Assembly (NCBI GenBank): GCA_017525235.1
Contig: JAFXTC010000003.1
Span: 62,001-126,000 of the forward strand
Source of the DNA: Bacteroidaceae bacterium
GTDB taxonomy: Bacteria > Bacteroidota > Bacteroidia > Bacteroidales > Bacteroidaceae
DNA: 64,000 nt
Reading direction: 5' to 3'
Both the position numbers and the translations under genes were made by a program. Below, in pieces: positions 1 to 62,500 of the stretch (positions within the stretch are counted from its first letter, which is position 1; each line of letters begins with the position of its first letter). The notes under the pieces are model-generated. The model ran no database searches, was not told where the DNA came from, and worked only from the letters and a program-made list of their open reading frames with translations.

Positions 1-141
1 AACAGTCCTCAATCAAATGAAGAAAGAAGGGAACTTGCCCAGCAGAATAGTTTGCAACTCGTCTCAAAACTCCTTGGTGGAAATGACGAATCTGCCGCCA
101 GCTTTGATGACGGTGAAGAAGATGTACCCTACAGCTCCTGA
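1..141 (+). CDS. C-terminal end of an unidentified protein (5' truncated by window)
   Basis: The first reading frame is open from base 1 to a TGA at 139-141 and gives 46 residues. The piece is polar, with a charged helix-like stretch followed by an acidic tail ending in EEDVPYSS. Short acidic tails that end in an aromatic residue are typical of single-strand DNA-binding or recombination-mediator proteins of phages and plasmids, but this one carries extra SS and there is too little sequence to assign a family. The stop is 7 bases before the ATG of the next gene, so the two are probably co-transcribed inside the mobile element. It overlaps an upstream extension of the next reading frame; the compact two-gene layout is the more natural reading. 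Confidence 0.5.
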   Translation, partial: NSPQSNEERRELAQQNSLQLVSKLLGGNDESAASFDDGEEDVPYSS

Positions 142-148
142 TTTCATA

Positions 149-631
149 ATGGCCATTAACCCAAGTCGCCAGCTGCAGATATGTACAGATCCCGAAAAGT
201 GCTTGTTCGGTAATTCTCCCAAACTGGAATCGTTGAACACAATTTATGGCCAAGGTACAGCAGAAGCATGGTTGGTACCAGAGGTTGTTGATGCATGCCA
301 GTTTTGTGGGTTGAAGGAAATGCCGGACAATTATCAGTTGGAGAAATTGGTCACCATTATAGCTGATAAGTATCACTATCTGACCATTGATCAGCTACAA
401 CTGTTCTTCTATTGGTTCTGCTCTGCAAAATACCTGCATTTCTACAATTCATTCGATCCGTTTGTAATCATCCGTAGCTTGGAACTTTTTATAAAGGACC
501 AAAATGATGCAATATATAAACGTGATAAAAGGGAAAAAGAAGAGAAACGAGAACGTGAACATCAAGAGTGGCTAAAGGACAGGGAGAAGGCTTTAGATTA
601 TCTTCATCAACAAGACAGGGGAAAGCCGTAA
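149..631 (+). CDS. DUF6633-like protein of a mobile element
   Basis: A 160-residue protein of unknown function. From memory of the family, the central block (IYGQGTAEAWLVPEVVDACQ, then a segment around LFFYWFCSAKYLHFYNS) matches small proteins annotated DUF6633 in Bacteroides phages and integrative elements; no search was run. The C-terminal 40 residues are a highly charged helix rich in K, R and E, possibly a coiled coil. The frame stays open further upstream (ATG at 17), but that stretch overlaps the end of the preceding gene in another frame, and ATG 149 sits 7 bases after that gene's stop, so I prefer 149. A hairpin (arms 636-644 and 652-660) follows the stop and may end transcription. 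No membrane segment or enzyme motif is visible. Confidence 0.6.
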   Translation: MAINPSRQLQICTDPEKCLFGNSPKLESLNTIYGQGTAEAWLVPEVVDACQFCGLKEMPDNYQLEKLVTIIADKYHYLTIDQLQLFFYWFCSAKYLHFYNSFDPFVIIRSLELFIKDQNDAIYKRDKREKEEKREREHQEWLKDREKALDYLHQQDRGKP

Positions 632-648
632 CGACGCACGGGCATCGG

Positions 649-738
649 GCTTGCCCGTGCCACCTCCTACCATGGAGGGGTAGCCTAATACCCCAAGCGA
701 ACGTGTTCGTAGGGAGGCATGCCACTACGATAGCAAGC
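649..738. repeat. Structured element copy 1 (cloverleaf-like, GCCTAA loop)
   Basis: Outer stem GCTTGC (649-654) with GCAAGC (733-738); a possible second stem CGTGCC with GGCATG; then three internal hairpins: CCTCC/GGAGG, GGGGTA-GCCTAA-TACCCC (677-694) and CGAA-CGTG-TTCG (698-709). A second copy lies at 1329-1418. Its 5' part can alternatively pair with GCACGGGCA at 636-644. Fold drawn by eye. Confidence 0.6.
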
Positions 739-884
739 TCAGGAACCATCATCGATTTATCAAAGCCCCTCCAAAATAAACAATATAGACTGGCATCAGC
801 TATGTACAACAAATACCACCTCTCTAATAGCTGTGTCGTAATTTGATGGATAGATACGAGATGTCTATTCGCCGTTTTCGTTCC

Positions 885-930
885 ACAAAAACGCTAAGCC
901 TAATTAGCGTTAACTTCCATTAACGTGTAA
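885..930. repeat. Double-hairpin element copy 1 (GCCTAA loop)
   Basis: ACGCTAA-GCCTAA-TTAGCGT (891-910) is a perfect 7-base stem with a 6-base loop. It is followed at once by GTTAA-CTTCCA-TTAAC (909-924). The same arrangement recurs at 1005-1050, and the loop equals that of the larger elements at 683-688 and 1363-1368. Confidence 0.6.
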
Positions 931-1004
931 AACGTCCACCTCCATCAAGCTTGCTCGTTACCTCATGAAGTGAGGCTTCTTGCAAGTCAAAGGAAGTGAG
1001 TTTT

Positions 1005-1050
1005 ACAAAAACTCTAAGCCTAATAAGAGTTAACTTCCGTTAACACATTT
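1005..1050. repeat. Double-hairpin element copy 2 (GCCTAA loop)
   Basis: ACTCTAA-GCCTAA-TAAGAGT (1011-1030), followed by GTTAAC-TTCC-GTTAAC (1029-1044). Relative to copy 1 the third stem position changes G to T and its partner C to A, so the pair is kept; one inner pair is lost. Similar sequence continues for a few bases on either side. Confidence 0.6.
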
Positions 1051-1328
1051 CGGCTTCTCGAAATCGGGCTTTGGTGGAGCAAGCTCAGCCTAGGAATGGG
1101 TGTAAAATAGGGGTATAACATACCCCACCTCAAGAATGTGATTTCAAATCAAAAAAACAATAACGAAATTGAAAATCTTGGGAATTTTATGTTGAAAATT
1201 CTGGGATTTTGCAACTTCTATCAAAGATGAGATGGTGTGTTTGAAGGCACCCATCAATTTGCTGAAGCCATAGGGGAAGGGTGGCAGCTGCTGCCACAAA
1301 GTCGTTCAAGCGTTAAATGAAACACAGG

Positions 1329-1418
1329 GCTTGCCCGTGCCACTTCTTTTTGTGAAGGGGCAGCCTAATACCCCAATCGAATATATTCATTGGGAGGCAT
1401 GCCACTTCACGAGCAAGC
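1329..1418. repeat. Structured element copy 2 (cloverleaf-like, GCCTAA loop)
   Basis: Second copy of the element at 649-738, with the outer stem GCTTGC (1329-1334) / GCAAGC (1413-1418) intact. The first internal hairpin changes from CCTCC/GGAGG to CTTC/GAAG, a paired substitution. The GCCTAA hairpin (1357-1374) and the last hairpin (1378-1389) each carry one change that is a C-A mismatch on the plus strand but a G-T (G-U) pair on the minus strand. The copy ends about 9 bases before the stop of the integrase gene. Confidence 0.6.
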
Positions 1419-1426
1419 TTCAGCCC

Positions 1427-3021: not shown

Positions 3022-3059
3022 TTTTCGCATGATTTTTGCGAAAACAATGCGAAAACAAT
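3022..3059. promoter_or_regulatory. Iteron cluster GCGAAAACAAT near the attachment site
   Basis: Two adjacent direct copies of GCGAAAACAAT (3038-3048 and 3049-3059), with an inverted TTTTCGCA at 3022-3029 that pairs with TGCGAAAA at 3037-3044. The spacing between the integrase gene and the tRNA fragment suits excisionase or integrase arm sites. Confidence 0.4.
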
Positions 3060-3167
3060 CGGCGTGAGTTATGGGGTTTCTTAACATCTCGTTTGATGGT
3101 GCAAATTTAGTAAATTATTGATAATCAACCAAATTTCAAGCAAAGAAAATTTTACAAAATTTCATTC

Positions 3168-3216
3168 TCTCAGACTCATAATCTGGAGGTCCCAGGTTCA
3201 AGCCCTGGCTGGTCCA
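3168..3216 (+). pseudogene. 3' half of a tRNA (CAT anticodon): probable attachment-site duplication (att)
   Basis: Visible parts are the anticodon stem-loop CAGA-CTCATAA-TCTG (3171-3185; anticodon CAT, so Met or lysidine-modified Ile), variable bases, the T arm CCAGG-TTCAAGC-CCTGG (3192-3208) and the 3' acceptor strand CTGGTCC plus A. The 5' acceptor strand and D arm are absent: upstream bases are AT-rich and do not pair. Elements that integrate into tRNA 3' ends leave exactly this remnant at the distal junction, so the intact tRNA should lie at the element's other end, left of the window. The original tRNA terminator follows at 3222-3260. Confidence 0.8.
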
Positions 3217-3221
3217 CAGCA

Positions 3222-54648: not shown

Positions 54649-56043
54649 ATGTTTCAAGATCCATTAACCCTGATTGTAGTTTGCGCCATCCTCATGGTGG
54701 CAATTGTGGCCTTCCTGGCCAATCGTTACAGAAAGTGTCCTGCCGATAAGATTCTTGTCATCTACGGTAGTGGAAATGGTGGCAAGAAGTCGGCTAACTG
54801 CGTTCATGGCGGCGGTGCCTTTGTTTGGCCCGTTATTCAGGACTATGCCTACATGAGCCTGACTCCCATTGGTATCGATGCCAACCTTACCAATGCTCTT
54901 TCGCGTCAGAACATCCGTGTGGACGTGCCCTGCCGCTTTACTGTAGGTATCAGCACCGACCCTGAATACATGAATGCTGCAGCCGAGCGCTTATTAGGCC
55001 AATCAGCCAATCAGATTCAGGAAATGGCGCGCGATATCCTCTTTGGTCAGTTGCGTCTGGTTATCGCTACCATGAGTATCGAGGAGTTGAACTCCGACCG
55101 TGACAAGTTCCTCGAGGCTATCACTGCCAATGTTGAGGTCGAGCTGAAAAAGATTGGTCTAAAGCTTATCAACGTAAACGTAACCGATATCAAGGACGAG
55201 AGCGGCTACATCGAGGCTCTCGGACAGGAGGCAGCTGCCAAGGCGATCAACGAGGCAAAGGTACGCGTAGCTGAGCAGGAGAAGATGGGTGAAATCGGTA
55301 AGGCTGAAGCTGTCCGTGAGACCCGTATCCGTACTGCAGCTGCCAATGCCGAGGCAGTAAAGGGTGAAAACGAGGCAAAGATTAACATTGCCAACTCAGA
55401 TGCTGTCCGTCGCGAGAACGAGGCCGAGGCTCTCCGTCGTGCTACAGCTGCTGAGAATGTGGCTCAGGCTCTTGCCCTGGAAGAGTCTTATGCTGCTGAG
55501 CAGAAGGCTGAGGAAGCTCGTGCCTCCCGTGAGCGTGCCACCCAGAATGCCAATGTCATTGTCAAGCAGGAGATTGAGAAGAAGCGTTTGGTTATCGAAG
55601 CAGAAGCTGCTGCCGAGCAAAAACGTGTCAACGCCAAGGGTGAGGCCGATGCCATCTTCGCAAAGATGGAGGCAGAAGCAAAGGGTCTCTATGAGATTCT
55701 GACCAAACAGGCATCCGGTTACGACAAGATGATTCAGGCTGCCGGCGGAGATGCCACCAAGGCATACACCCTGCTGCTCTTGGAGAAATTGCCTGAGCTG
55801 GTTAAGACACAGGTTGAGGCTATCAAGGGCATTAACATCGATAAGGTTACCGTTTGGGACAACGGTGGCAATGCTGATGGAAAGGGCTCCACAGCTAACT
55901 TTGTCTCTGGTCTCATGAAGAGTGTTCCACCTTTGAACGAACTCTTTGAACAGGCCGGCATGTCCCTCCCCGAATATTTGGGAAAGAAGAACGCTAACGT
56001 TAACGTTAACGAAAACGATAACGAAAAAACAAATAACAATTAA
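54649..56043 (+). CDS. Flotillin-family (SPFH) membrane protein
   Basis: A 464-residue scaffold of membrane microdomains. One N-terminal membrane helix (about 5-25), the SPFH/band-7 domain (about 30-190, with VDVPCRFTVGIS and INVNVTDIKDESGYIEALG), then a long Ala/Glu/Lys-rich coiled coil with repeated EAE(A) heptads (about 200-370), and a C-terminal domain (LEKLPELVKTQVEAIKGINIDKVTVWDNGG). The last 17 residues (NANVNVNENDNEKTNNN) are low complexity and encoded by tandem DNA repeats (55990-56085), so the original stop was probably earlier. Confidence 0.92.
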   Translation: MFQDPLTLIVVCAILMVAIVAFLANRYRKCPADKILVIYGSGNGGKKSANCVHGGGAFVWPVIQDYAYMSLTPIGIDANLTNALSRQNIRVDVPCRFTVGISTDPEYMNAAAERLLGQSANQIQEMARDILFGQLRLVIATMSIEELNSDRDKFLEAITANVEVELKKIGLKLINVNVTDIKDESGYIEALGQEAAAKAINEAKVRVAEQEKMGEIGKAEAVRETRIRTAAANAEAVKGENEAKINIANSDAVRRENEAEALRRATAAENVAQALALEESYAAEQKAEEARASRERATQNANVIVKQEIEKKRLVIEAEAAAEQKRVNAKGEADAIFAKMEAEAKGLYEILTKQASGYDKMIQAAGGDATKAYTLLLLEKLPELVKTQVEAIKGINIDKVTVWDNGGNADGKGSTANFVSGLMKSVPPLNELFEQAGMSLPEYLGKKNANVNVNENDNEKTNNN

Positions 56044-56085
56044 CAATTAACGACTGTAAACGGTAAACCGTAAACAGTAAACTAA
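55990..56085. repeat. Six- and seven-base tandem repeats across the flotillin stop
   Basis: A 6-base section (ACGTTA, ACGAAA) in the last codons of flotillin, then AACAATT units, then TGTAAAC, GGTAAAC, CGTAAAC, AGTAAAC heptads up to the aquaporin leader. Confidence 0.75.
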
Positions 56086-56095
56086 CTAAAAAAAC

Positions 56096-56767
56096 ATGAA
56101 AAAGTACATTGCTGAATGTATCGGTACATTCGTACTGACATTCCTTGGCTGCGGTGCAGCCGTTAGTCTTGGTTGTGCAGAAGCAAACACTGCCGCCGTA
56201 GTAGGAACTGCCATTGCCTTTGGTCTCTCTGTTGTTGCTATGGCTTACACCATTGGTGGTATCTCTGGTTGCCACATTAATCCTGCCATTACACTGGGTT
56301 GCCTTATCACAGGTCGTATTAGTGTCAAGGATTGTGCAGGCTATATGCTTGGTCAGGTAGTTGGTGCCATTATTGCCGGTGCATGCTTGGCATATATCTA
56401 TGGTGTTCCATCAGGACTTGGTGCCAACGGCATCGGAGCAGGGTGCAACGGCTGTGCGATTACGGCCCTTGTTGTTGAGATTGTTCTTACCGCCCTCTTT
56501 GTTTTGGTGGTATTGGGTGCTACCCACAAGACCAATGGTGCTACCGGTAACTTTGCAGGTTTGGCAATCGGTCTGTCACTGATTCTCATTCACCTGGTAG
56601 GTATTCACTTCACAGGCACCAGTGTGAACCCCGCACGTTCTATAGGTCCCGCTCTCTTCGCTGGTGGCGAGGCACTGACCAACGTATGGATTTTCATCGT
56701 AGGTCCCTTCGTAGGCGCTATCGTAGCAGCTTGCCTTTGGAAGTTAGTTGAACTGAAGGAGGAATAA
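56096..56767 (+). CDS. aqpZ: Aquaporin (MIP family, AqpZ-like)
   Basis: Water channel with six helices and two half-helices. Both NPA motifs are present: GCHINPAITLGCL and GTSVNPARSIGPALF, the second with the selectivity-filter Arg. The 223 residues and the small, water-selective filter pattern fit AqpZ, as does the lack of the Asp insertion of glycerol facilitators; function inferred from family. It probably shares the transcript of the flotillin gene. Confidence 0.93.
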   Translation: MKKYIAECIGTFVLTFLGCGAAVSLGCAEANTAAVVGTAIAFGLSVVAMAYTIGGISGCHINPAITLGCLITGRISVKDCAGYMLGQVVGAIIAGACLAYIYGVPSGLGANGIGAGCNGCAITALVVEIVLTALFVLVVLGATHKTNGATGNFAGLAIGLSLILIHLVGIHFTGTSVNPARSIGPALFAGGEALTNVWIFIVGPFVGAIVAACLWKLVELKEE

Positions 56768-56811
56768 AAAACCTACTCTCCGATGAGAGATGAGATGAAT
56801 GGATAATACTT

Positions 56812-56845
56812 AAAAGAGCGCTCGGGTTTTCCCAGCGCTCTTTTT
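56812..56845. terminator. Bidirectional terminator after aqpZ
   Basis: AAAAGAGCGCT (56812-56822) with AGCGCTCTTTTT (56834-56845). Facing genes converge here. Confidence 0.85.
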
Positions 56846-56858
56846 CTCAATGTCCAAA

Positions 56859-59285
56859 TTATTTTAACAACTTCTTACCGTCTTGTATGAACAGACCGTG
56901 TTGGGGAACTTTGTTCAGGGTTCTGCCGGAAAGGTCGAAAACTGCTCCAGCGCCTAATGCGGCAGGAATGGTTGCATTAGCAGTCTCCTCATCTTCTTTG
57001 ATGCTCAGCGTAAGTGTCTGCGAGATGGGAGTCCCTTCTATGCAAACGGCATACTTATGCGTACCAGGCTGTAAGAGACCCAACTCTATGGTGCCGTTTG
57101 TCTCGGTAAGGTCCTTCAGTGGTGTCCAAGTGCTTTCCCCTTCTGCCTGATGGCAGAGCTGACAGGCAAAGCGGGTTGGCAGTGAACTGTAAGAGAGGAC
57201 TACCGCATCCGTCTCGGTATATTCCGACTTACTGCTGCGCAGTAGGGCTGGCTTGCCTACCACCACATACTTGCGTTCGAAGGGCTCGGTATAACCGTCT
57301 GCCATAAAATAGCCTATGAAATACACACCCGTTGGGAGGGCACTCGTCCAGTTATTATTACCGCTGGTATTCAGGGTGACGGTTCCCGATGTCTTGCTGT
57401 TGTACACGTAACAAGGGCACTTGGCTTCCTTAGGCACAATACCGTCCTCATAGATTCCTATCCAGTCCTTGCTTATCGCAGGAGCACCGGCAAGGGTTAC
57501 ACGGATGGGATTACCCTGATTGTAAACCGTTTTGTCGGTTGTCATTCCAAACGTTGCCGGGTCATAGTCCCTTGTCAGGACAAAGAAGGGCACGCGCTCT
57601 GAGCATTCCGTATAGCCGCCATCCTTGAAGAGCACGGCAAAATATTCACCCGCAGCAGTCACTTTCACATTGACTGTACCATCCTTAGCATCAGTGTATT
57701 GATAGGTATAGGCCTTGTCACTGCTGCCGGGTGTCTTACCTGCTTGATAGATACCCACCCAGGCCTCCGTACCTACGGGAGCGTTCTTGAACGCGATGGC
57801 GATGTCGGTATTTGTCTTGTAAAACTGCTTTTCCATACTTAGCGTAGCCGTCAGGCTGCTGGGAATCTTTCCGCCTTTTATCCAATCCGTATAGATGGGG
57901 GCCCCTTTGCCGCTATAGCAGTTACACGGACGGACAACGAAGCGGTAGTCACGGTCCTTGGGCAACTCACTCAGGGCAAACACACAGGTCACCTCACCCT
58001 CATCCTGATCCTCTGCAAAAAGACTCATGGGCGAGAACACACGCTTGGTAGCCGAGATAAAGCGGCAGTCCAGCCACTCCCATTCTACCTGTACCTCAAA
58101 GTCGAAGGCTCTCACGCCCGTACGTTTCTTTAATACATTGGGGAAGTGTACCGTCACCTGTTCTGTCTCTGTTCCATTACGGTTCTTACCCTTTGCCTGG
58201 GTAACGGTAGCTATGGCACCAGCCTCAAACTGGGGTATAGGGGCCGTCTTGCTACGGTTCTCAAAACTGAGCGGTTCAGACAACGAGATGGGCCAGGGCA
58301 ACAGCCAGTTCTCATCCAGCTGCTGGTCATAGACAAACTCCCTTCTCTCCAAGGTAATGGCGCTGTCATAAACCCGCATTATCATACCCTGACGACCTTT
58401 TGAACAGTCCATGTTGGGCATCTGGTAAACAGGACGCAGGCTACTGTCGTCCTGATAGGTATTCTCGCGTGCGGGCATGGGATATAAGTATTGTAATGAT
58501 GCTGTGCCAATACTGGTAAAGGCTCCCTGCCACAGGTCGCGATCGTCGGTAAGGGGCGAGTGCGAGTGACCCGAGAAAGCCACGGCATTAGGGTAGCGGC
58601 TCATCAGCTTTGTTACGGTACCGTCATCCTGACCCCATGCCCACGGGCCGTTACAGGTGTTCTTCAGATGCGGATGCTGAATATAAAAGAAAGGACGCTC
58701 AGTCTCCAACTCACCGGCATGCTGCTGCATCAGCTCTTCCAGACCCGGAATATTATTGGTATGCCAATGGGCACCTATAAAGTGGTAACCCTTTATGGTC
58801 TTGAACCAGATGGGGGTATAGTCCTCTCCGAAGTATTTCTTCCACACCTCGGCAGGACGCTTTCCTATACCCTGCGACTGCGCGGTCTCACTGCCCACAC
58901 TGTTGATGACACTGCTCCACGTATAACCCTCCAAGTCGTGATTACCATAGATAAAGAGTCGCTCCGTATGTTTGCCGTCCAGTCCCTCGTCATTGGGGAA
59001 CACACTGTACCAGGTATCAGCCACCACCTTAAGCTGGGGTTCCAACCCTTGGTCAGCCATATCGCCGGCAATGATGACACCATCCACTTTCAGGCTGCGG
59101 AAGTATTCAAGGGTATGTTTAAAAGTATCGGCAGTCTCTGTGCCACGGATATGGATATCGCTGACAATGCCAATAACCAGATTGGGATTGCCCAAAGTGC
59201 GAAGGGCTTCAGCAAAAGCAGGGACGTTCAGATAGGCTGCACCTGCTAATACCGAAGAACGTTGTAGAAATTCTCGTCGGTTCAT
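56859..59285 (-). CDS. Secreted calcineurin-like metallophosphoesterase with C-terminal sorting-like tail
   Basis: An 808-residue exported enzyme. The N-terminus MNRREFLQRSSVLAGAAYL has a Tat-type twin-Arg motif. The metallophosphatase core has IGIVSDIHIRG (Asp, His), IIAGDMADQG, IYGNHDLEG, GAHWHTNN and AFSGHSHSP, a complete dimetal set. Two or three beta-sandwich repeats follow (about 480-740, each with a pattern like WIGIYEDG / WVGIYQAGKTPG), and a final segment DLSGRTLNKVPQHGLFIQDG, like C-terminal tails of Bacteroidota secreted proteins. The substrate may be a nucleotide or phosphodiester. No paired transporter. Confidence 0.82.
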   Translation of the reverse strand: MNRREFLQRSSVLAGAAYLNVPAFAEALRTLGNPNLVIGIVSDIHIRGTETADTFKHTLEYFRSLKVDGVIIAGDMADQGLEPQLKVVADTWYSVFPNDEGLDGKHTERLFIYGNHDLEGYTWSSVINSVGSETAQSQGIGKRPAEVWKKYFGEDYTPIWFKTIKGYHFIGAHWHTNNIPGLEELMQQHAGELETERPFFYIQHPHLKNTCNGPWAWGQDDGTVTKLMSRYPNAVAFSGHSHSPLTDDRDLWQGAFTSIGTASLQYLYPMPARENTYQDDSSLRPVYQMPNMDCSKGRQGMIMRVYDSAITLERREFVYDQQLDENWLLPWPISLSEPLSFENRSKTAPIPQFEAGAIATVTQAKGKNRNGTETEQVTVHFPNVLKKRTGVRAFDFEVQVEWEWLDCRFISATKRVFSPMSLFAEDQDEGEVTCVFALSELPKDRDYRFVVRPCNCYSGKGAPIYTDWIKGGKIPSSLTATLSMEKQFYKTNTDIAIAFKNAPVGTEAWVGIYQAGKTPGSSDKAYTYQYTDAKDGTVNVKVTAAGEYFAVLFKDGGYTECSERVPFFVLTRDYDPATFGMTTDKTVYNQGNPIRVTLAGAPAISKDWIGIYEDGIVPKEAKCPCYVYNSKTSGTVTLNTSGNNNWTSALPTGVYFIGYFMADGYTEPFERKYVVVGKPALLRSSKSEYTETDAVVLSYSSLPTRFACQLCHQAEGESTWTPLKDLTETNGTIELGLLQPGTHKYAVCIEGTPISQTLTLSIKEDEETANATIPAALGAGAVFDLSGRTLNKVPQHGLFIQDGKKLLK

Positions 59286-59427
59286 TATTTTATTGATTTG
59301 TTACATTTCCCCCTACAAAGATAGCAAATTTCTACAATACAATGCAATATTTTTGTAAAGAAAGTATTATAAATAGGGACAATATCCCTCATGATTCCTG
59401 ACATATCTATAAAAAACAAGCCAAAAG

Positions 59428-59459
59428 TTTTGCAGTTTCAGAGAAATGACGTACCTTTG
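59428..59459 (+). promoter_or_regulatory. Promoter of tRNA-Leu
   Basis: TTTTG (59428-59432), 19-base spacer, TACCTTTG (59452-59459). Confidence 0.7.
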
Positions 59460-59470
59460 CAACCGCAAAA

Positions 59471-59552
59471 GCCCAGATGGCGGAATCGGTAGACGCGCTG
59501 GTCTCAAACACCAGTGGGGCAACCCGTGCCGGTTCGACCCCGGCTCTGGGTA
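59471..59552 (+). tRNA. tRNA-Leu (anticodon CAA)
   Basis: An 82-base class II tRNA. Acceptor GCCCAGA with TCTGGGT plus A; D arm GCGG...; anticodon stem-loop CTGGT-CTCAAAC-ACCAG (anticodon CAA); long variable arm GTGGGGCAACCCGT; T arm GCCGG-TTCGACC-CCGGC. CCA is not encoded. A strong terminator follows at once. This is an intact gene with no sign of an integrated element next to it. Confidence 0.95.
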
Positions 59553-59557
59553 CTTAT

Positions 59558-59595
59558 AAAAAGAGAGTGCTGCAAATTTGCAGCACTCTCTTTTT
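59558..59595. terminator. Bidirectional terminator after tRNA-Leu
   Basis: AAAAAGAGAGTGCTGC (59558-59573), loop AAATTT, GCAGCACTCTCTTTTT (59580-59595): a perfect 16-base stem between tRNA-Leu and the convergent C10 gene. Confidence 0.92.
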
Positions 59596-59597
59596 GT

Positions 59598-62500
59598 TTA
59601 CTTAAACGCAACCTTTTTCCCATTCACTATGTAAATGCCCTTCTTAGGTTGAGAGTTTGTTACTTTGCGTCCGTTAAGGTCATACACCCCGGTAGCAAAT
59701 TTGTCGCCTTTCACTATTCCCTTTTCCCTTTCAACCGAGTTGATGCCATCTGGTGACTCGGGGATTTCGGGCAGGATGATGCTTGGCAGTCGCGTCTCCT
59801 CGGGCAGGTTCGTGGTGAAATAACAACTGAGAGCTGTCAATGCCGTGCTTGTCGTGACATACTCGAATGCCGTGCCTTCCGCATTCAGCATATAACAATC
59901 CTTGACCTTGGGCGATAATGTGCTGGCACGGAACTGGTAGTTTTGCGATGTGACAGCCATCTTGTCCGAGCCCGACTTATAGAAAGGCACATTAGTTGAA
60001 CAGAATACAATGGAGCGCCCAGCCATCGTTATGTCGCCCGCAATAATGTAAGGTGTACCGCCGCGCAACTCGGTAGCCGGAGCGAAGATCACCTCGCCTT
60101 TGTTTCCCTCGGCAGCGAACTCATAAATCCAGAAAGGCTTGTTCTCATCATCGAGCGAATAAGATACACCATCCAGATAGATGGAGTCTGCCCTGAACGG
60201 CATCGTAAAGACGTGCCAGCCTGTTCCTGTCTCTGTTTCGGGGAAGGTATAGGTAAACGAGGCACTGTCCGCATCGAAGCTTATGGGAAGGAAGAAAGGC
60301 TGTTCGTTAACCAGATTGATGTGGTTGGCATGACCGCCACTCACGGCATTAAAATCGTCGAGGGTAGAAGGTATCTGCATATCTGCCGCAAAGGCATAGA
60401 TGGTGTTGGGGTTCTTGTTGGGTGTCAAACGCGAAATCTTGTTGGATGCCGCATAGAAACCGCAGACAGTACTGGCTGTTGTCATCGAGGTAGAAGAGGC
60501 TTTACCCGTAACGCTGCCGTCGCTCTTCCAACTCAGCACACCGGCCGCCATCTCGCATTTCCAATCCCAGATGCCGCCATTTGTCAAAGTGCCGTCCTGA
60601 TTGCCATACATAGCCTTGAAGCGATAGTAGTAACCGTCGGCCAAGTTTTCAATGTTAAAGTCCACACTGGTTGTCTTGCCTGCAGGAATCTCTACATAAT
60701 ACATATAGCTAGAGCCACTTGTAGCAGAACTTGCGCCCACTTTTTGTTTCCACATCTGCAACTTGACAGTTCCATGGTAAGGCTTTGAACCGTTGTTTTT
60801 GATGGAAGCTTTTCCAATGAGTCGCTTGCCGTAGGCCACGTTACTGGCACCGTTGCTGACGGTATAGGAGATGGCCAGACTGGCCTTTTCGGCCTCAGCT
60901 GCCGTTACTATCTTCATTGTGCCTGTTCCTATTACACCGTTACCATTCTTGTTCGTACAGAACCATAGGTTGTAGGTACCCGTCTCTTCGGGCGTATAGT
61001 AGAACGAGAACTCTGCCGACTCACCTTTGCGAACGGCAACCCTTGCAAGGTTCTCTGTATATACCTTGCTATCGGTCTTGCTGGCAAAGAGATAGACATC
61101 CTTGTAGAACTCGTCGGCGTTGTTACGGAAGGTTACCTTCAACTCCTGCTCCTCTCCCACGACACGTGTACCGGGGAAGATTATCGTATCGACGCAGATA
61201 TCCTCAACAGGAGTGACCATGCGCATGGTAGCAATGCCGTTGGAATCCACCACAGCCTCGATATACTCATCGCGCATGTTGTATTTGGTCTTCCATTTGT
61301 CAGCCGTCCTTTGCTTGCTGGCAGGAGAAAGCTTGTATGTACCTTCGGGAAGTTTGCCCCTGATAGTGAATGACTTTGAGCTGGACTGCTCATCAGCCAT
61401 GCTGCTGATGGACTGCTGGGTTCCGACTATGGAAAGGCTGCCGTCCTCCTCCTGCATCATGACAGCTGTGTTAAAGCTGCCCGTTGCTCCTGTGTTATTG
61501 ACAAAGGTAACCTTTACCGCTGTGCTGGTAAGGCTGACATCACTGATGGTAAGGTAAGCCTCAGTCTTGTTCTTGTCGGGCCGACGAAGACCGATAACTA
61601 CAGCCTGTCCCCTGGCATAGCCGCCGCTGCCGCTGGCAGCACCGATGCCGCTGTTGTCGCCCGGGTTGAGAACGCCAATCAGGAACCAGCCGTTGCTGCC
61701 TCCGCCCCATCCCCAGTTCACATGGAAGAGGTTCTCGCCGTCGAATCCGTCTATCACGAAAGCATGACCGCCGCTGAGCTTGGAGCCGCTAAAGGGCACG
61801 GGATAACCGGCAGCCACCTCGTCGTAAACCAAGTCAAACCATTCGTCTATGCTGCATTCATCACGACCCACTCTGTGGCCGCCGTCATCGAAGCCAAAAT
61901 ACTTGATAACGTCAGGAGCCTTCCAGTTTGCGCCCGAACTCTTTCCGTAGCTCATCTTTACAGCCTGTCCGCAATAGCGCATCAGGTTGGCAACAGCCGT
62001 ATCCTGTGCCGTATGGGCATGGTCTTCGCTGCAGCTATAAGTATCACGCATGTTCTCCCAGTCGATGACGGCACCGCGTGGTACGGCGGGGAAGGTAACG
62101 GTCTTCTTTGTGCCGTTGCTCAACGTGTACGTCTTGCTGTATTCAGGAATCGCCACCTTAATCTTATCGGGGTACTTATGAAAGTTGATGACCTGCGCCC
62201 AAGCTGTGGCTATACAACCTGCAGCCGGACGTCCCTGTGTACCATCCTCCTTGTAGTACTTCTCGATGGTAAGGTTGTAGGGCAGGCCCTGATTCCATCG
62301 GGTAGTAAGAATCTCGGGCACGCTGTGCTTTGTGCCACGAATCTTGTTACGCTTCCTGAGTTCGGGGGCGTTGGGGTTTATGTCATTGTCTATCACATAC
62401 TTTATCTCTTCGGCATAGCACTCCAGCATGGCACTCATGTTCTCTGGGATGTTGTCGGGGTCGAAAGAGCCCTGCTCCACGTAGCCCAGGATAGGTTCTA

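Follow-up and report, generated by a model that had tools for sequence, protein, structure and literature searches.

Hairpin modules of an apparently relaxase-free Bacteroidales island as candidate MobV-type origins of transfer

The window analysed here, a stretch of 64,000 nucleotides from a Bacteroidaceae genome, contains two large and two small hairpin modules that very probably represent MobV-type origins of transfer (oriTs), carried on an integrated island that would be mobilised in trans. Nicking, the strand concerned, transfer itself, the helper and the enzyme that made the hybrid modules described below are all inferred from sequence. An oriT was one of three explanations offered for these hairpins by the initial annotation, and this option is now strongly supported, because independent elements carry a related module immediately 5' of a MobV gene and on the strand of that gene.

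Hairpin modules and their architecture

Four stem-GCCTAA-stem hairpins are present on the + strand, in the interval that separates a DUF6633-like gene from a convergently oriented tyrosine integrase gene (Table 1). The initial annotation had placed them correctly, except that the two small hairpins extend one nucleotide further at each end than it had indicated; it had not mentioned the A.A mismatch of the second small one. The changes that it had reported between copies, from CCTCC/GGAGG (663-667/674-678) to CTTC/GAAG (1343-1346/1354-1357) in the large modules and from a G-C to a T-A pair in the small ones, are correct. The large copies, each of about 100 nt, are 81% identical over 93 nt, and the small copies are 87% identical over 45 nt. 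Large modules share one architecture: a CTTG-loop hairpin comes first, then an IR1-like hairpin that stops just short of the core, the main hairpin, a further hairpin and finally GCAAGC.

Table 1. Coordinates of the modules and neighbouring features in the window (L, locus; G, genome; C, contig).
Feature	Position	Strand	Details
DUF6291 backbone gene, 3' end	1..141	+	PF19808, 4.9e-19; L065:6258-7142
DUF6633-like backbone gene	17..631	+	PF20338, 5.6e-05, below cut-off; relatives in L021, L023, L025, L067, L169
Large module 1 (oriT-like)	642..741	+	Covariance model R1, 91 bits; one of the model's 19 building sequences; relatives directly upstream of MobV genes
Large module 1, CTTG-loop hairpin	646-657	+	
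Large module 1, IR1-like hairpin	663-678	+	
Large module 1, main hairpin	677-694	+	GGGGTA-GCCTAA-TACCCC; loop 683-688, nic presumed inside by analogy
Large module 1, third hairpin	698-709	+	
Large module 1, GCAAG	733-737	+	
Small module 1	880..924	+	Hairpin 890-911, stem AACGCTAA/TTAGCGTT; loop GCCTAA 898-903, then GTTAACTTCCATTAAC
Small module 2	949..1084 (narrower extent 1000-1044)	+	Hairpin 1010-1031, stem AACTCTAA/TAAGAGTT, one A.A mismatch beside the closing pair; loop 1018-1023, then GTTAACTTCCGTTAAC
Small module 2, flanks	949-954, 1079-1084	+	GCTTGC, GCAAGC; putative grouping, after L014/L064
Large module 2 (oriT-like)	1322..1421	+	R1, 89.5 bits; also among the model's 19 sequences
Large module 2, CTTG	1330-1333	+	
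Large module 2, IR1-like hairpin	1343-1357	+	
Large module 2, main hairpin	1357-1374	+	Stem GGGGCA/TACCCC, one C.A mismatch; loop 1363-1368
Large module 2, GCAAG	1413-1417	+	
Tyrosine integrase, 501 aa	1427..2932	-	Phage_int_SAM_5, 1.2e-07; Phage_integrase, 2.3e-05, below Pfam cut-off
29-nt repeat, possible integrase arm site	3034..3062	+	Common to the other island end, C63:47340-47368
Right att, 48-bp repeat of tRNA-Met 3' end	3171..3218	+	Other copy C63:47247-47294; weak tRNA match 3143-3208

The hairpins of the window are real, and a chance origin is very unlikely because relatives occur in other genomes. The window shows no enrichment of the hexamer as such (22 GCCTAA observed versus 31.9 expected from shuffling), and only two copies have a perfect Watson-Crick stem of at least 4 bp, both of them in this region. 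Folded as DNA, the 790-nt region is far more stable than its shuffles (z -9.5, from only 20 shuffles). When modules are folded individually, only the first small copy takes the GCCTAA hairpin as its minimum-energy form; the large copies prefer a rival hairpin in which GCCT pairs with a downstream AGGC, and in an RNAalifold consensus the CTTG arm pairs with the main stem, in a fold that does not covary.

Covariation, which the initial annotation had proposed to test, holds for the CTTG hairpin in 19 large modules and for the main stem in 22 MobV upstream regions. For a structure chosen by the analyst, and with kinship among modules uncontrolled, 82.3% of cells pair in the 19 modules, versus 71.1% in shuffles and 41-54% when slid, and the CTTG helix is 93.4% paired, with changes on both sides in three of its four pairs. 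The main stem of the 22 regions is 80.7% paired, versus 55.1% with arms swapped (maximum of 2000: 70.5%), figures that are optimistic because visible hairpins guided the choice of regions, made by eye; 23 had been collected, and L110 was left out because its core is identical to that of L108.

The island and its relatives in other genomes

The island is 18.0 kb long and is bounded by 48-bp direct repeats at tRNA-Met, with the intact tRNA-Met at its other end (C63:47219-47293). Its backbone comprises HTH_17, DUF6291, DUF6633 and integrase genes. Defence cargo lies just upstream of the window, at about 55100-60400 of G000:C63 (L103:13108-18388), and includes a short pAgo (4e-199), a TIR-type partner (4e-145) and a DUF4062/ATPase protein; adjacent type I restriction-like genes encode HsdM- and HsdS-like proteins, and the cargo also includes an AAA/OLD protein and a GIY-YIG/DUF4357 candidate defence gene. 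The island has the integrase and att repeats of an iOriT-type integrative mobilizable element and, as also expected of such an element, no match to relaxase or mating-pore families (Pfam) in 14 of its 15 ORFs of at least 80 aa, the remaining ORF overlapping module 1. PF01076 and PF03432, the two families searched genome-wide, have no match anywhere in the genome of the island, which is 72.7% complete, and no MobV lies near the window copies. The island itself appears to lack a transfer enzyme and probably depends on one supplied by other mobile elements.

Relatives of the modules were found with a strict pattern (GGGGNAGCCTAATNCCCC) in 6 of 139 same-genus genomes, the island's own included, and the pattern read backwards gave no match. 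The covariance model R1, built from the 19 large modules, has 36 matches in the genus, on 25 contigs of 21 of the 139 genomes, and matches 14 of 393 genomes in a sample of the order (own genome included); GCCTAA is present in 15 of the 19 matches outside the genus. A plasmid DNA search with the 791-nt region returned no match. The small-module pattern had 12 matches at two mismatches, a number that the control with the pattern reversed roughly equalled or exceeded; use was therefore restricted to the five matches with 0-1 mismatch, two being those of the window itself and the type of small module 1 recurring in G088:C19, G211:C30 and G117:C25. A common island backbone (integrase, HTH_17 gene and module) is found in L212, L213 and L218, and an integrase lies near the module in L214, L216, L219, L220 and L225. 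Some modules are solitary in chromosomes, such as that of L167, which is accompanied by backbone remnants; these may be scars left by islands since lost. Most DNA matches of the region (18 of 24) fall on a non-module stretch at about 1137-1217; within it, about 1165-1217 (GAAAATCTTGGGAATTTTATG...) has 79-89% matches in many same-genus genomes, in two cases as a pair separated by about 25 bp, and looks like a dispersed repeat.

Association with MobV relaxases

At the level of the family, modules lie next to MobV on the coding strand, as expected of a MobV-type oriT, and in large module 1 one inverted repeat (663-678) precedes the assumed nic and another (677-694) surrounds it. Five of the 25 module clusters in the genus are MobV-linked (G012:C12, G217:C254, G118:C81, G054:C37 and G079:C17), and in all five the module is directly upstream of the gene on the same strand. 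PF01076 is present in 21 of the 139 genus genomes, with no match on the other 20 module-bearing contigs, many of which are short. A MobV (Mob_Pre) gene lies directly downstream of the module in L059, L062 and L063. Of the plasmids found with the L063 relaxase, six were examined (H1, H2, H5, H6, H7 and H56). In L068-L071, from Phocaeicola, Parabacteroides, Prevotella and Segatella, a GCCTAA module precedes mobV on the same strand, with a core-to-mobV distance of about 95-140 bp and stems of GGG type (L068, L069) or of other types (L070, L071). The same layout is found in L072 with the loop ACATAA, and in the far more distant L073 a CTTG hairpin is accompanied by a main hairpin of related type. 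Outside the genus, one of 17 loci adjoins a MobV of this clade (L211 in genome G526; 73% identical to that of L062), a distant MobV is about 5 kb off at G430:C1:528857, and a PF03432 relaxase lies about 8 kb from G430:C1:901458 and about 6 kb from the module of G433:C14; the other 13 have no PF01076 or PF03432 match within the retrieved stretch.

The full layout, judged by eye, is present upstream of 11 of 13 distinct MobV that are at least 38% identical to L063 or L059 over at least 300 aa; L105, whose MobV gene is broken, shows a weak GCCTAA hairpin and nothing more, and no module could be recognised at the MobV of L104. Among more distant MobV, L087, L090 and L106-L109 retain the main hairpin, here with the loop ACACAA or ACGCAA, as well as the CTTG hairpin and GCAAGC, and L088, L091, L097, L098 and L100 retain only the main hairpin (ACATAA); the CTTG hairpin is absent from L110 and from the ACATAA group. 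No module was recognised at L074, L075, L076, L078 and the listed distant set L112-L133, and L077, L093, L094 and L101 were left undecided. The loop consensus over the 22 MobV upstream regions is RCNYAM, followed by T. Loop type does not match the relaxase tree cleanly: the MobV of L176 and L177 (93% identical to each other, 51% to L063) branch beside L063, among GCCTAA-loop MobV. None of the MobV examined has a small-type oriT.

The loops of the MobV-linked modules of L176 and L177 (GCCCAC and GCTCAC) are exactly complementary to downstream hexamers (GTGGGC and GTGAGC), loop and hexamer changing together, and a second, mutually exclusive hairpin is possible. L121, L128 and L133 encode proteins of about 400 aa that share only the C-terminal motif of these MobV (query about 430-496), perhaps a common docking tail.

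Module arrays and recombination at the core

Large modules are arranged in tandem on one strand in related relaxase-free islands, with three copies each in L057, L058 and L164 and two each in L056, L067, L165, L166, L064 and L218. Start-to-start spacing is about 187 bp (175-209 bp in 10 of 12 intervals; the two outlying intervals measure 244, which includes a run of N, and 363). Multiple copies occur in none of the five MobV-linked clusters versus 9 of the 20 others, a difference that is not significant (Fisher test, p = 0.12). Two loop types are mixed in 8 of 10 arrays. In seven of them (L057, L058, L064, L067, L164, L165 and L166), the first member, whose loop is GCTCAT or GCCCAC, shows 76-89% identity to the module that precedes the MobV of L176/L177, the best match being L067 (88 and 89%), and later members have GCCTAA, the loop of the L063, L062, L059, L068 and L069 oriTs, except at L057:7800 (GCTAAT) and L064:7122 (loop lost). 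The eighth, L218, combines GCCTAA with ACTCAA. Only GCCTAA loops are found in L056 and the window. The large modules of the window are closest to the L063 and L059 oriTs (75/74% and 71/72%). An opposite-strand small module is also present in L164 and L064. At L064:7122-7243 an array member has lost its loop and right half through a deletion that runs from the core as far as GCAAGC. In L057 (7987-8093) and L064 (7331-7431) the open frame of an HTH_17 gene contains the first array member, and the oriT therefore seems to double as coding sequence; similarity to the HTH_17 frame is also seen at the first array member of L165 (13748-13854).

Five modules are hybrids of two parental types, with the change from one type to the other placed within or next to the 18-nt core. 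When the two L056 modules are taken as parents A and B, informative sites left and right of the core were 18A:1B and 0A:26B in L165, 20A:0B and 0A:23B in L167, 18A:0B and 2A:24B in L067, 15A:0B and 7A:19B in L168 and, reciprocally, 3A:16B and 27A:1B in L057. With the L058 modules as parents the switch is kept in the same five but is less clean (L165, 10:3 and 3:17; L168, 11:2 and 8:15). Recombination at the module core is thus likely and would fit the chemistry of a relaxase, and such switches are what relaxase-made recombination would leave. Relaxase deletion between same-strand oriTs has been described in other systems (PMC4652767). The five hybrids would then document natural crossovers in the presumed nic region.

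Switching at the core would also be expected if the core were the crossover site of a tyrosine recombinase, with inverted-repeat arms around a constant 6-bp spacer, and the covarying arms, a spacer constant in most copies, and an integrase gene next door here and near many other modules are all compatible with this. Such a site is nevertheless improbable, since the window island is bounded by the tRNA-Met 48-mer, which lies about 1.8 kb off and does not contain GCCTAA, the homology of the L212/L213 islands extends about 490 bp beyond the module, the MobV-linked copies of plasmids sit at the relaxase gene, and loops differ between copies within one array. The folded single-strand recombination site envisaged in the initial annotation is retained only as regards recombination at the core, as the island's own integrase appears to use the tRNA-Met repeat. 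The module as an attachment site was set aside because the ends of the window island and of L212/L213 lie at other places.

A structured RNA or cis-regulatory leader, another initial suggestion, would account for covariation and for a module 5' of mobV on the same strand, but is very improbable: no Rfam family matches above the gathering threshold, island modules lie downstream of unrelated genes, lead no single gene and, in the window, are convergent with the integrase, and tandem copies and core-switching hybrids would be unexpected. Single-strand and rolling-circle origins form hairpins near Mob/Pre genes in small plasmids, and Rep61-like genes occur near some modules; a replication origin carried beside mob genes is equally doubtful, given that the islands are integrated, that no common replication gene was recognised beside the modules and that in MobV elements the module abuts mobV, as the pMV158 oriT does.

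Proposed mechanism and comparison with known systems

As MobV-type oriTs, the modules would each fold in single-stranded DNA, with a cut site probably in the 6-nt loop. The island would excise from tRNA-Met by its own integration and excision functions, and MobV, the coupling protein and the mating pore would come from a helper conjugative element. The relaxase would cut the + strand within one of the modules and guide a single strand into the recipient, where the strand would recircularise and then reintegrate. Modules of differing specificity would widen the helper range, and recombination between them would reshuffle and delete modules. A helper of this kind is plausible: on the plasmid pE2-28, a distance of 4.7 kb separates a mobV of this clade from a T4SS conjugative DNA transfer gene, with an OmpA-family gene beside mobV and TraK some 26 kb away.

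The oriT of pMV158 (MOBV1, relaxase MobM) is described as lying near the mob gene, whose coding strand is transferred, with an IR1 hairpin 8 nt before nic and IR2 arms that enclose nic; the two hairpins are mutually exclusive, and IR2 was undetected as a formed hairpin on the supercoiled plasmid (PMC5863519). The modules resemble this oriT in mob-gene proximity, an IR1 before nic and an IR2 around the presumed nic, but differ in sequence, add a CTTG-loop hairpin and a GCAAGC flank, and occur in several copies and on islands without a relaxase. By analogy only, the pMV158 spacing (8 nt past the IR1-like arm) would place the nic of module 1 at 686/687, inside the loop.

Relaxase-free plasmids of S. 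aureus carry two or three mimics of pWBG749-family oriTs that match different helpers (PMC4652767, PMC8136818). The present islands are similar in being apparently relaxase-free, in bearing putative oriT variants and in probable recombination between distinct oriTs, and differ in phylum, in Mob type as given in those papers, and in being integrated rather than plasmids. The oriTs of two-oriT plasmids are, in those papers, always on opposite strands, whereas large modules form same-strand tandems in each array. An integrase with an excision factor, an oriT, no relaxase and a helper in trans also characterise iOriT-type elements, such as SXT-mobilised MGIs, the cases considered here being from Proteobacteria and Firmicutes (PMC11389934, PMC5704250). 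A 2017 review counted few Bacteroidetes IMEs, all encoding their own relaxase (PMC5704250).

Multiple oriTs on relaxase-free elements are thus already known from S. aureus plasmids; nothing on relaxase-free oriT arrays in Bacteroidales was found in the open-access literature, among the matches listed. The Tn4555 oriT (Smith and Parker, 1998) is, by title, reportedly a Bacteroides oriT related to a Gram-positive plasmid family. Its relaxase is classed as MobP (PMC5704250), whereas the modules would be served by MobV.

Implications

Relaxase-free islands may be widespread in Bacteroidales, with tandem oriTs that each fit a different MobV helper, specificities continually gained, lost and reshuffled by relaxase recombination and defence cargo moved by several unrelated conjugative elements, although this wider picture is tentative and somewhat more open to doubt than not. 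The modules would provide a sequence model for finding such islands and would carry oriT mimicry beyond the phylum and the relaxase family in which it is known. If confirmed, this reading would explain the spread of seemingly immobile islands of gut Bacteroidales, and immune genes, such as those of short Argonautes, would ride on borrowed conjugation.
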